Of a stretch of 64,000 nt of DNA, positions 10,767-14,792 are shown one piece after another; positions within the stretch are counted from its first letter, which is position 1; each line of letters starts with the position of its first letter. Origin of the DNA: Torulaspora globosa. Its lineage: Eukaryota > Ascomycota > Saccharomycetes > Saccharomycetales > Saccharomycetaceae. The stretch is from NCBI RefSeq assembly GCF_014133895.1, contig NC_050727.1:930001-994000 (forward strand). The letters are read 5' to 3'. A program made the position numbers and the translations under genes. The notes below the pieces were generated by a model that had not been told where the DNA came from, made no database searches, and was given only the letters and a program-made list of their open reading frames with translations.

Positions 10767-11141
10767 TCAGCCTTTTAAATTTCAATACCCCTGTAAATTA
10801 CTTCCTCAACTGTTAATTTCTTTATTGTCTATTTACTATTTATACAGACAAATAATTAGCCTTCTTTTTGAAATATTCGGTAACTTCCGATTACTCTGAT
10901 AAGAGTCTGTGTAGGTTGGTAAACAGCTTCGACACGCCCTACGTTGATGTGGGGAAGGACAAAGGCGGCGTCGGCCTCTGCAGTGCGTCGCTGGTGGTTC
11001 TTTGACATCTGAAATATTTAAAGTTGGCCAAACTCAAAGGCTAAGCTGGCTAAGTGAATGAAAATTCATGCTCAAAACACCTTTGCTTAAACGTCAATCA
11101 TTTTAACAAAAGTAAACTTATTTAGTCATAATAAAACTCAT

Positions 11142-11285
11142 TTACAAAGTGCTGGTGGTTCTGAAGTCTTCCAAGGCAACGGCAATTCTCTTGGACATGG
11201 TCTTTTCGCCCTCTCTGACCCAGACTCTTGGGTCAAAGTACTTCTTGTTTGGGCTGTCTTCTCCCGAGGGATTTCCTCCCACGAA
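11142..11285 (-). pseudogene. FBA1: 3' tail fragment of fructose-bisphosphate aldolase gene FBA1
   Basis: The bottom strand encodes about 45 residues ending NPSGEDSPNKKYFDPRVW then VREGEKTMSKRIAVALEDFRTTSTL and a stop, which is the C-terminal end of yeast class II aldolase Fba1 (KKYFDPRVWVREGEKTM is diagnostic). Upstream the homology ends abruptly and the frame soon meets a stop (11334-11336). No other part of FBA1 (normally about 359 aa) is in the window. WHO homing elements are known to target FBA1 and to leave displaced FBA1 3' ends beside WHO genes, and this tail lies directly downstream of a WHO-like relic on the same strand. Confidence 0.85.
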
Positions 11286-11355
11286 ACACTCAGGTCGATA
11301 CTGATCAGATGCTCTTGTGAAACGAAGCAATGACTATTTATCAGGTATAATGTAG

Positions 11356-11462
11356 AGCTTTGAAGATGATCCGTCGAACAACTTCCCTTTTGTCACGGAT
11401 GAGCAGATTGTATGTGGAACTGATTGGCTTGAATCAAAAACGGATTTCAAAAACACTTCTCC
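11356..11462 (+). pseudogene. Inverted second fragment of a WHO/HO-like gene
   Basis: On the top strand one frame reads SFEDDPSNNFPFVTDEQIVC then GTDWLESKTDFKNTSP and a stop. The WHO-like relic on the other strand contains SFEDDP, FVTDDQIVC and LES in the same order, with about 40 more residues between the first two. At DNA level 11356-11373 is an exact inverted match (18 of 18) to 11922-11939, and 11388-11416 matches 11783-11811 in inverted orientation at 27 of 29 bases. It is therefore a separate, internally deleted copy of the Hint C-terminal block, facing the opposite way. Confidence 0.7.
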
Positions 11463-12543
11463 CTAGGGATTTCCCTCTTGCAACGGAGTACTTCCACATC
11501 GCTCACATTGGCGAGTAACGATCTTTGCAACTTGCCTTTTCTTGCATCTGGGCTTTTTTCCCTTTTGAACTCTGAGCCTGAAGACCCAGTTGCAGAGATC
11601 GTTACTACAACGCATATGAGTGCGCGAATAACGTGTCGAACAAGCGAGGCATATCCTGTCTAGAACATACCCCAACCAGGGAACCTTGCACCACTTTGGT
11701 GTCGTTTCTGTACGGCATGATAGGCACCTCCTTCTGAAATACGGTCTTGATTCAAGTCTTTCCGTACTCAATTCGGCACTTGCACATACAATCTGATCAT
11801 CGGTGACAAAAGTCCGGTTCGAGGTACCTGACAGTACCAGTCCTATGACAGCATCTTTACAACCTTCGATAATATTAAATCTCAACGTGCCAAAATTCAA
11901 TGTGCCATCGTCTTGTTCTTCCGGATCATCTTCAAAGCTCCAAGACTGGTATCTCTATCGATATAGGTGTAAAATCATCTTAGAGGAGCCAGTCGTCTTT
12001 TGTTAACGTACCGTAAATCATCTGCCTCACATTGCCAGTTGAAGTATCTTCCCTCGCTCCGCAACACCATTGGCTTTACGTGGTCCATAATCTTCGACGT
12101 CTCGGTTGTCAGAGGGAATCGTCTGCATTTTCCTTGATGATCTTGATAATTCGACCATCCGCTGTTTGATGATCAGCCAGCTGAGACACGGAAACCTCCC
12201 TACCTCTACGCCCACTCTTGGCTATCTTGATCCTCTGCTTTGTCTTCAAGACCAGTTGCTGTCTCTTGGAGCATGTCACTTCGATTATGCCATAAGGTTT
12301 CCCCACCGAGGGATCTTTCAGGTGTGCGCGGTGATTGGTCTTTTGTTGAACTGTGACCAAATCATGGTCACCTTTTAACACAGCCTCGACTTTTGCCGCA
12401 CCTCCATGAGATGTAAGCACTTCATCGCCAACTTTGATGACTTCAATTGGCACGGTCTTCCAGTTGGCTAGGAAAATCTTTGTACCTGGTACCAAACCAC
12501 CAATGAATTCTGGATCACCGTTCATTAGTCTGCATTGCTTCAT
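11463..12543 (-). pseudogene. Decayed WHO (HO/VDE-like) homing element gene lacking its endonuclease core
   Basis: The ATG at 12543 opens a 144-codon frame (to 12109) resembling the Hint N-half of VMA1-intein and HO: GTKIFLANWKTVPIEVIKVGDEVLT, then VQQKTNHRAH and DGRIIKIIKE. The block B TxxH region reads VTCSKRQQL, so the usual His is replaced by Gln. After a frameshift near 12115 the reading passes through 12027-12110. A second shift gives SEGRYFNWQCEADDLRY at 12058-11978, matching the YFNFDIEVRDL (HO) and YFEWTIEARDL (VDE) region. The next homology, in a frame open from 11954 to 11463, is the Hint C-half (FVTDDQIVC) and then a cysteine-rich tail with several CxxC pairs, one GATA-like (CLSCRTETTPKW, CLAC). 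The whole LAGLIDADG part, some 260 residues in HO, is missing. It is not functional as written. Confidence 0.85.
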
Positions 12544-12581
12544 TTAACCATGACTGGCCGAATGAGACGAAATCAGTCGCT

Positions 12582-12589
12582 CTTTTATA
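12582..12589 (-). promoter_or_regulatory. TATA box remnant of the WHO-like gene
   Basis: On the bottom strand TATAAAAG lies about 40 bp before the relic's ATG. It suggests that the element brought or kept its own promoter. Between it and the degenerate FBA1 tail at about 12986 I see no other recognisable feature. Confidence 0.35.
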
Positions 12590-12985
12590 CACTACAGGGA
12601 TGGCGCAATGTAGTGGTACGCTGTTTCAAAATCAAACAATGCCATAAGGTCGTGAGGGAAAGATTGTCAGGCCATTTTGCCCCGTCATTATTTCTGTTAT
12701 TCTAAGTTATCGATAATGATGAAACATCCGACTATCTCTCACTTTGATGGAAGAACCGAGAGAGACAAATAAGCCTCGATCGTTTTGCAGCATCTGATGC
12801 GGAAGCGACCTATCACTGTGCTCGCCAAGGCGTTTGGGTTTCATCGTTTTATTATTGAATTTGGATCGTTGCCAAGACAAAGCTAAGGCACCCATGACTC
12901 TTTACCCGAACATGCTCAACTGACAAGCTTTAAAGCTTGCATTTCAATCACTTGTCACTTCATTGACAGTTTGCTTAAGCTACTC

Positions 12986-13066
12986 ATTTGTCATAAAACC
13001 CACTTAAAAAGTGTTGGCAAACCTTTCCGGAAACCTGGATTTGACCGAAGGACGTACAATCCAACG
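12986..13066 (-). pseudogene. FBA1: Degenerate second FBA1 3' end with 3' flank
   Basis: The 3' flank and stop region (12986-13020 as written on the top strand) align with the same region of the clear FBA1 tail: both share GTCAT, AAAAC, and AAAGTG followed by TTGG or CTGG, in the same order with a 3-base gap. In frame with the stop at 13004-13006 the bottom strand reads RWIVRPSVKSRFPERFANTF, weakly like the end of Fba1 (VWVRE...FRTTNTL) with a deletion. If right, the WHO relic is bracketed by two FBA1 tails. Further up to ISN1 (13067-13460) I recognise nothing. Confidence 0.35.
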
Positions 13067-13325
13067 CTTGTGGAAGGATGTCTATAGTCAGATGATGCCG
13101 GTAATGGCCAATTGATTAATCCCAGGCTGCTATATCGCTATAGAGAGCTAGCTAACGAGCCAATGGCCTCGGCAGCATCTCGCCCAGCTTTGTGACCCGC
13201 GAGGTAGACATGGTACAAGGGCAGTGATGAACTCGTTCACGCATTCCGCTTCTCATTTAACGCGTAGCGATGTATTCGCGCCTGTATTCATCACTAAATC
13301 CGTTGTATTTGCCATATGTATTCGG

Positions 13326-13342
13326 CCCCCGTACTGGGGGGG
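13326..13342. other. G/C hairpin next to a T run
   Basis: Five C, the pentamer GTACT, then seven G form a short inverted repeat, followed directly by TTTT. It lies about 120 bp from the ISN1 stop in otherwise unremarkable sequence. Its role is unknown. It could form a stable hairpin in a read-through RNA in either direction. Confidence 0.35.
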
Positions 13343-13460
13343 TTTTACAATCAGTGGAGTTGTCAATTCGCTAGCATGCTGTTACCGACTGCTACATATT
13401 GTGGGTCCGACACCAAGACTGTGAAGTTTGAGGTTAGTACGGTCCGTAGACAGTAAAAAA

Positions 13461-14792
13461 TTACGAAAACCCAAGGCGAGAAAGAAAAAACACTGTTTCC
13501 GCGGGGGATGCGATCCATAGCGTGCAACCCGCCAATCTGGCCTTGAAGTCATTTGCAGACCCCACAGGCGCAAACTGGTCTCCCACATGCAAAGTTTGAC
13601 TGGGCCTGATAGGATCTTCAGGGCTGTAATAGTTCTGCAACACACGCAATCCTAGATCTTTGCCACCAATGTCGCACCAAACATCACTACCACCATCAAA
13701 ACAACTAAATTTAATGCGTCTGGCCGGCGGGAAGGTTTCAAGGGTAGCCTGCAAAGTGAGAACGACTTCCTCAAGCTGCTCTCTCTCAAGCTTTACGTGA
13801 ACTCGCCTTTGCGCAACCGGATCATATCTTTCACCAGGCACGATGCCAACTGCCCTTTTCTTCCTCACGAGCGCTGTCTCTTCCGGGAGGTGCAATCTGT
13901 CCTTGAGACTGCGGAGCGTCTTTTCAGCGAAATCAAGTGTTTGATCCACATCTGACTGATCCCACTCCGTCATGTGGGAAAGGATCCACTCGTCTTGCTC
14001 AATTGTTCTGAAGCCAAATTTATTATCCTCGTTCTCATAATAACGGAACAGATAATTCGACTCGCCTCCCATAACTGTCAGGTTGTGTTTCTGTTCCAAC
14101 GATAAACTTGAAGAGTCGTGAACCGCAACAATGAGGCCCTCCAGTCTGCGCTCATACTGCGATGGTTCATCGTAACCAGCCGCGGTGACAATCCCAACGC
14201 GGATGTCGTTCTGCAGCAACTTAACAATGTAAGGGATGACAGGGTTTGTGTAGTCAAGCGACCCACCGTCATCATACAGAGTGACATCCCCATCAAAAGT
14301 GACCAGCTTCAATTGGTTATAATGGTATTTTTTTCTCTTATCGGCGAAATAGAAGAGCTGTGCCGTATTCAATATCCTTCTAACATCGTTAAAGCTCGGA
14401 GCCACCATTCTACGCTCAGATATTCCCCTCTGGGAGTCTTCCCACAGGAACGCCTTTTCGAGGGGAAGCTCTGTAAAGAAACTACCGATGCTTGGAACCA
14501 GCTGGTTCAACCGGGACTTGCCTATCAAATCGTACTTTACCTCACTGTCGTCGTTTTCCTCCAGCTGACCATTTCTAGAGTCAAAATCGATCTTGTTCGA
14601 GACCAGGCCCTCAATATCCTTGAATATTTCCGCATACTGCGACCTCACCCTCTGTGTGGTCGTCAAATCGTCCACATCGTGCGAAACTGCATGCAGCACG
14701 AACGGCGTCGCTAGCAATCCCTTGATCCACTCCACAAACTCATCCTTGCGGTGACTTTTCAAATGGTACTCAACCCTATACCTCGAAGACAT
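13461..14792 (-). CDS. ISN1: IMP-specific 5'-nucleotidase
   Basis: A 443-residue cytosolic enzyme that dephosphorylates IMP to inosine. The N-terminus MSSRYRVEYHLKSHRKDEFVEWIKGLL is nearly the same as S. cerevisiae Isn1 (450 aa) and fixes the start at 14792. The longer frame to 14876 uses a non-ATG codon. A haloacid-dehalogenase-type motif LVTFDGDVTLYDDGG provides the DxD nucleophile, and later motifs (GVVTAAGYDE; HVGDQF) fit the family. It corresponds to YOR155C. In S. cerevisiae SLP1 lies between PDR5 and ISN1. Here the WHO relic occupies that interval. Confidence 0.95.
   Translation of the reverse strand: MSSRYRVEYHLKSHRKDEFVEWIKGLLATPFVLHAVSHDVDDLTTTQRVRSQYAEIFKDIEGLVSNKIDFDSRNGQLEENDDSEVKYDLIGKSRLNQLVPSIGSFFTELPLEKAFLWEDSQRGISERRMVAPSFNDVRRILNTAQLFYFADKRKKYHYNQLKLVTFDGDVTLYDDGGSLDYTNPVIPYIVKLLQNDIRVGIVTAAGYDEPSQYERRLEGLIVAVHDSSSLSLEQKHNLTVMGGESNYLFRYYENEDNKFGFRTIEQDEWILSHMTEWDQSDVDQTLDFAEKTLRSLKDRLHLPEETALVRKKRAVGIVPGERYDPVAQRRVHVKLEREQLEEVVLTLQATLETFPPARRIKFSCFDGGSDVWCDIGGKDLGLRVLQNYYSPEDPIRPSQTLHVGDQFAPVGSANDFKARLAGCTLWIASPAETVFFLSRLGFS

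Follow-up and report, generated by a model that had tools for sequence, protein, structure and literature searches.

The insert that splits ISN1 in Torulaspora globosa is an inert insertion of the WHO10 family that was probably assembled during the repair of a DNA break, and its sequence shows exchange with a live copy. It lies in the window, the whole 64-kb stretch analysed here (C1:930001-994000), and was compared with the complete set of genome contigs (9.28 Mb, 8 contigs, denoted by C and a number; positions without a contig are those of the window). The relic is an additional member, and a dead one, of an already known family of selfish yeast elements related to the mating-type switching gene.

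Host gene and limits of the insert

The preliminary description had placed the element between PDR5 and ISN1, with limits at 10767..13460. Instead, the element was found inside ISN1, and its limits were corrected to ~10921-13490 by the following features.

10891..10920, minus strand: native ISN1 3' end (TNLHRLLSE, stop), severed from its gene by the insert (tblastn and motif search)
10921..13490, no strand: whole WHO10-derived insert, ~2570 bp, interrupting ISN1 after the codons for ...SPAETV and before those for TNLHRLLSE-stop; ends accurate to a few bases
13461..13490, minus strand: replacement ISN1 end (FFLSRLGFS, stop), encoded by the insert (homologue alignment)
13491..14792, minus strand: ISN1 body (IMP-specific 5'-nucleotidase; PF06437 over residues 1-435, homologue alignment)

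The native ISN1 tail was recovered by tblastn in 3.2 kb with E values of 0.011 (P0058) and 0.52 (P0056), the short match by itself being modest. The motif NL[HN][RK]L[LI] occurs only once in the six frames of the 64-kb window, and the homologue P0062 ends identically to the tail recovered at 10920-10891. The position, strand, frame and stop of this tail all fit, indicating that the insert occupies ~10921-13490. With the native tail on the far side of the insert, a plain intergenic insertion between PDR5 and ISN1 was rejected. Duplicated 3' ends are reported for the hosts BXI1 and E1850 (PMC7282813); such a duplication was likewise rejected for ISN1, whose body has no native tail of its own. 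As read from the sequence, the PDR5 stop (10766) and the native ISN1 stop (10891) would have been separated by ~124 bp before the insertion, which split ISN1 nine codons ahead of the stop.

The last 10 codons of the present ISN1 open reading frame (13490-13461, stop included) are insert sequence, and the nine residues that they encode are unlike the ends of all seven aligned homologues, the HG537 allele included. Torulaspora-like ISN1 homologues terminate in forms such as TNLHRLLSD, and HG537 ISN1, which in a protein-level comparison is 94-95% identical overall, keeps the normal end VNLNRLLTE. Since the Pfam domain is complete to residue 435, ISN1 with its changed C-terminus probably still works.

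The dead WHO10 gene and its family

The coding sequence of the relic is distributed over the insert as follows.

12109..12543, minus strand: WHO10 N-terminal part with start codon and Hint N-half, a 144-aa open reading frame with a frameshift at its end (Pfam, structure, tblastn, trees)
11978..12130, minus strand: continuation of the N part (~residues 141-192) in another frame (tblastn frames, lesions)
11936..11937, minus strand: junction of an internal deletion that removed the endonuclease domain, the same as in the relic at C2:650k (alignment)
11466..11936, minus strand: C-terminal part (residues 469-625), comprising the end of the Hint region and the zinc-finger domain (tblastn, trees)
11280..11452, plus strand: inverted, decayed WHO10 coding pieces separating the zinc fingers from the FBA1 tail (tblastn), with comparable pieces after WHO10 in the three intact copies

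The minus strand thus carries residues 1-142, then 141-192 in a different frame, and then 469-625. The Hint N-half matches Pfam Hom_end_hint (PF05203) with an E value of 5.4e-20 and VMA1-derived/PI-SceI structures with a best E value of 6.1e-12. It begins at its own ATG, has no exteins, and shares its 5' region with intact WHO10. WHO10 codons ~193-468, which encode the LAGLIDADG endonuclease (PF05204) and are present in the intact relative at C2:709k, are missing, indicating a relic and no active element. Without the nuclease domain, the relic should not be able to cut DNA.

The C part is an open stretch of 157 codons. By tblastn (E 1.9e-94) it matches residues 469-625 of the intact WHO10 protein of C3 at 95% identity; that C3 protein is itself identical to HG536_0C01180. 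Three CxxC motifs were identified by eye in its translation, within the three to five of the C-terminal zinc-finger domain in WHO proteins. The listed 145-aa open reading frame of the C part gave no Pfam Hint match at E<=1, and the Hint C-half is identified solely by its homology to intact C3 WHO10. Accordingly, the HO-like zinc fingers and the Hint N-half on the minus strand, both noted previously, were borne out, and the proposed Hint C-half holds by homology and has no domain match of its own.

Each of the three intact WHO10 genes is also trailed by inverted scraps of its own coding sequence (L011:3778-3890, L012:3749-3871, L013:6136-6305), with arms of 33-52 nt that are 76-94% complementary, so that long hairpins could form in their transcripts. 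The genome also has a Piwi-domain (Argonaute-type) gene at C3:1115515-1116465, open over 1047 codons, and RNA interference might therefore act on WHO10 hairpins.

Hom_end_hint, used as a profile against the genome contigs, matched 14 places, among them the window relic, the VDE-bearing VMA1, HO, the three intact WHO10 genes and several relics. Among the proteins compared, three intact WHO10-like proteins belong to HG536 and two to HG537 (P0001-P0005). These counts equal those given for strains CBS764 and CBS2947 (PMC7282813), from which we infer that HG536 is CBS764. The N half is 80-85% identical to the three WHO10 proteins of this genome and 70-72% to the two of HG537, and the C half 69-95% and 68-70%, respectively. 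The next closest sequence is the unnamed protein P0006 (57% for N, 40% for C). Several Lachancea WHO proteins are 25-30% identical in the N half, no closer than HO, so that only the WHO10 matches decide the placement.

Trees were built from 27 of the 55 proteins together with HO and VDE of this genome, VDE being omitted from the C tree since it has no zinc finger. In both the N-half tree (30 sequences) and the C-half tree (29 sequences), the relic grouped with WHO10, and the split of relic plus WHO10 from all others had support of 97.6/95 (N) and 97.7/100 (C). Both halves of the relic therefore belong to the WHO10 clade. The WHO-type assignment of the preliminary description is upheld by the best matches of both halves, which are WHO10 proteins and not an ordinary VMA1 intein, and by the phylogeny of the halves, the two kinds of support that it had named.

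The N-half match to VMA1-derived structures, and to the VMA1 and HO of this genome, might be taken to mean that the relic is what decay has left of a VMA1 intein (VDE) or of an HO copy, and not a WHO gene, a reading to which we give practically no credence. Identity is 28% to VDE (N) and 28% (N) and 20% (C) to HO, with 17-34% for other HO sequences, against the far higher values for WHO10; the zinc fingers, the FBA1 tail and the tree placement are all contrary as well. Both origins were rejected on the identities and trees. HO resembles the relic in its intein-like domain and C-terminal zinc fingers, but it is a separate, uninterrupted gene on C4, and the best similarity of the relic is to WHO10, not to HO orthologues. 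VDE shares the Hint fold but lies inside VMA1 and has no zinc fingers, whereas the relic carries zinc fingers and is not embedded in VMA1. In this genome, VMA1 with its VDE-type intein is an uninterrupted frame of 1084 codons (C3:1001696-1003060).

FBA1 fragments, captured scraps and exchange between copies

Outside the WHO10 gene, the insert consists of FBA1-derived sequence and pieces of other origin.

11142..11276, minus strand: FBA1 3' tail, last 44 codons and stop (tblastn, alignment)
10991..11141, minus strand: FBA1 3' flanking sequence (alignment)
12880..13017, minus strand: diverged sequence upstream of WHO10, left over from an FBA1 stop and 3' flank (22/24 bp agree with the end of FBA1)
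10943..10999, minus strand: captured 57-bp methyltransferase coding piece, 96% to C7:836776-836832
13021..13170, minus strand: 150 bp found elsewhere in the genome only beside the C2:650k relic
13206..13442, plus strand: patchwork from two sources, C1:60.3k and C1:372.5k

The FBA1 tail is 88.6% identical over its 44 codons (E 1.3e-21), and with ~150 bp of 3' flank 86% identical over 300 columns; Pfam by itself gave only E 0.065. The similarity is thus far from chance, and the fragment lies downstream of the WHO10 gene, as FBA1 3' fragments do with WHO genes. The sole full-length FBA1 match in the genome is on another contig (C7:163198-164220), with WHO pieces directly downstream. The FBA1 tail and the lack of a complete FBA1 in the window are therefore as previously described, and the intact gene that was to be sought has been located. 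The FBA1-linked WHO10 pseudogene (L010:5640-7504) contains an inverted internal duplication. Positions 12898-13017 match the FBA1-tail region of the C2:1066k copy. The remnant at 12880..13017 is probably the second arm of the element.

From the PDR5 side, the insert reads methyltransferase scrap, FBA1 flank and tail, inverted WHO10 scraps, WHO10 and the probable FBA1 remnant, followed toward ISN1 by the 150 bp of C2:650k type, the C1:60.3k scrap and the GON7-start scrap. About 32 bp of the methyltransferase piece also occur in the C2:709k WHO10 insert. Positions 13206-13324 resemble the region upstream of the gene at C1:60.3k, presumably PXR1, in three pieces (81-88%), and 13366-13442 resemble the first codons of GON7 at C1:372.5k (80%).

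Foreign scraps were also observed beside two of the three live WHO10 copies. The stretches flanking the C1:1517k copy match C2:647.6k, C2:465.7k, C2:79.9-80.3k and C2:708.4k, besides WHO10 copies. For the C3 copy, one side matches C2:123.0k and C2:168.9k, and the other C2:91.5k, C1:733.5k, C8:23.9k and several retroelement-like places at 77-81%, this sequence adjoining the C3 gene at L013:6639-7190. Two stretches beside the C2:709k copy matched nothing but themselves in the search. Small matches outside the element in L010, L011, L012, L013, L015 and L034 represent captured fragments or, in L010, distant WHO similarity (77-78%). Five of the nine scrap sources (C2:647.6k, C2:79.9-80.3k, C2:708.4k, C2:123.0k and C2:91.5k) lie <=~2 kb from another WHO10 copy, a raw count that leaves aside the retroelement-like sources and concerns C1:1517k and C3 stretches picked after the matches were seen. 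None of the sources of the window scraps (C7:836.8k, C1:60.3k and C1:372.5k) is near a known WHO10 copy, which, like the C2:709k result, counts against the origin proposed below.

The copies were compared with one another by exact runs (15 stretches), run tests (9 copies) and shared lesions (10 copies), selected by length or convenience; the pieces at C2:287k, C6 and C4 entered the exact-run comparison only, C2:124k stood outside the run tests, and the C2:80k and C8 pieces entered none of the three. Seven frameshifting gaps were found in the N part, each common to 2-3 of the 10 copies; a one-base gap in C2:1264k, C2:90k and C2:124k, noticed on visual inspection toward the end of that alignment, is absent from the scripted list and was left uncounted. 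One frameshift is common to the window relic, C2:650k and the FBA1-locus copy, and two further frameshifts and the endonuclease deletion are common to the window relic and C2:650k, so that the deletion and three frameshifts recur there. Two frameshifts are shared by C2:90k and C2:124k, one of these also by C2:1066k, and C2:650k shares one with C2:124k and one with C2:1264k. All four combinations were observed for 8 of 21 lesion pairs, fitting no single tree, and for none when the C2:650k copy was left out; one recombinant copy could thus explain the conflicts.

The host DNA around the window relic and around C2:650k shows no similarity. That the common lesions arose by local segmental duplication was rejected, because the WHO10 similarity of the window to nine other loci is confined to 10968-13170. 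The shared lesions imply that dead sequence was copied between loci, by relocation or conversion. Over 11937-12180 the window relic is identical to C2:650k at 237/243 bases (98%), with 81-98% in other bins; this restricted extent argues that it is not a recent copy of the whole C2:650k unit.

Two parts of the insert match the intact WHO10 locus of C3 without a single difference.

11142..11801, minus strand: Tract A, 660 bp identical to the C3 locus (all-versus-all exact runs, run test)
12419..12798, minus strand: Tract B, 380 bp identical to the C3 locus, covering the gene start and upstream region (exact runs, run test)

The tracts amount to 1.04 kb, whereas the longest of the other exact runs found in the 15 stretches is 102 bp, and between the tracts the relic differs from C3 by 10-15%. 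Tract A spans 118 polymorphic sites, a length reached in 0/1000 permutations (450 polymorphic columns, 9 copies), and Tract B 91 sites, reached in 0/10000 permutations with Tract A removed. The next best pair, the C7 FBA1 locus and C2:650k, spans 33 sites (34/1000 globally), and the remaining pairs were reached more often. Taken singly, exchanges other than that between the relic and C3 are thus weakly supported. A PHI-like test on 64 sites in 10 copies gave 0/1000. These results indicate a recent exchange of DNA between the relic and the live C3 copy, for which two identical tracts around a diverged middle would be unusual as the product of a single conversion.

The direction of the exchange bears on an alternative that we consider unlikely, in which the relic gave its ends to the C3 gene, so that a dead copy would have refreshed the zinc-finger and 5' regions of a live gene. 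Of the four tract edges compared by similarity to third copies, one fits C3 as donor, one fits the relic, and two do not discriminate. At 12798/12799 the third-copy similarity of the relic follows the baseline and that of C3 does not, as expected of a relic donor, but the opposite pattern was observed at 11801/11802. A relic donor would also require a dead copy whose coding sequence had stayed without frame lesions in both tracts; no such lesions occur there, which favours C3 as donor, as an argument only. Also rather improbable is the arrival of the insert whole and live as a recent C3 copy, with its middle then overwritten by conversion from a dead copy such as C2:650k. Such an arrival would account for the exactness of both tracts and the 98% identity over 11937-12180, but identity to C2:650k falls to 89% in the adjoining 11802-11935 and to 88% in 12181-12418, and the whole middle has no close match among the eight third copies compared. 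Moreover, the outer parts differ from C3 at 11077-11141 (61/65) and 12799-12912 (105/113), indicating that the relic unit is not a simple C3 copy. An assembly artefact, with C3 sequence mis-merged into the relic, is very improbable: the tracts are known from the assembly alone, but both tract edges run in register into diverged sequence on both sides, and PacBio and Illumina data are reported for CBS764 (PMC7282813).

Proposed origin and relation to known WHO10 systems

The origin that we favour, copying during break repair followed by exchange with C3, would begin with the breakage of ISN1, probably through the action in trans of a WHO10-type nuclease. The break would have been repaired by copying from at least one dispersed WHO10 locus, at least one such locus being already dead, and scraps of other genes would have been incorporated during the repair. 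Later ectopic gene conversion would have homogenised both ends with the live C3 copy. The relic persists and might give or receive sequence in recombination with live copies.

More tentatively, the T. globosa WHO10 copies, live and dead, could form one ectopic network of donors and recipients, in which any locus with WHO10 sequence can supply the patch for a new break. Copies without a nuclease would then travel as passengers of the live genes, and the live genes themselves would be shuffled, perhaps in the very zinc fingers presumed to aim them. Such a network, if true, would be a counterpart to the donor cassettes used in mating-type switching. It would also explain the integration of WHO10 in the absence of flanking homology, the mechanism at non-FBA1 sites being stated as not clear (PMC7282813). 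The ISN1 insert offers a precise host junction and a composite of identifiable pieces, and also shows deletion-bearing dead sequence at two unrelated loci and two exact tracts of dead-live exchange. In combination, this evidence makes a case, open to testing, that such insertions are built by break repair drawing on other WHO10 loci, dead ones among them, and it bears on how HO-like nucleases came to operate with donor cassettes.

ISN1 and PDR5 are not mentioned in the main text of PMC7282813, the supplement of which may list the relic. The available sections of that paper discuss gene conversion and chimeric evolution of FBA1, and contain neither an exact-identity exchange with a live copy, nor lesions common to loci, nor the words 'ectopic' and 'mosaic'; the cleavage assays described there concern WHO6. 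Literature searches brought up that eLife paper and its Insight (PMC7282806), and none of the other titles listed concerns WHO10 relics.

In the FBA1-linked WHO clusters of Torulaspora and Lachancea, an intein-like and zinc-finger gene likewise occurs with duplicated FBA1 3' ends, but the relic is not beside FBA1, and its FBA1 tail has 135 bp of coding sequence compared with the ~400-bp fragments described in T. delbrueckii. The preliminary description had remarked that no complete FBA1 lies in the window. The position away from FBA1 stands, and it is less odd than it seemed, because WHO10 has already been shown to leave FBA1 and to carry FBA1 fragments to other loci in T. globosa (PMC7282813). 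Five intact WHO10 genes also lie away from FBA1 (PMC7282813), so that adjacency to FBA1 does not define WHO10.

Among the closest known systems are these T. globosa WHO10 elements, from the same species and, by inference, the same strain (Coughlan et al. 2020; PMC7282813). They likewise consist of a WHO10 gene followed by an FBA1 3' fragment away from FBA1, contain scraps of other genes, and hit their hosts near the 3' end at BXI1 and E1850, as at ISN1 here. Unlike them, the relic is dead, has lost its endonuclease and has ISN1 as its host, and its insert of ~2570 bp is slightly below the 2.8-6.6 kb reported for WHO10 (PMC7282813).
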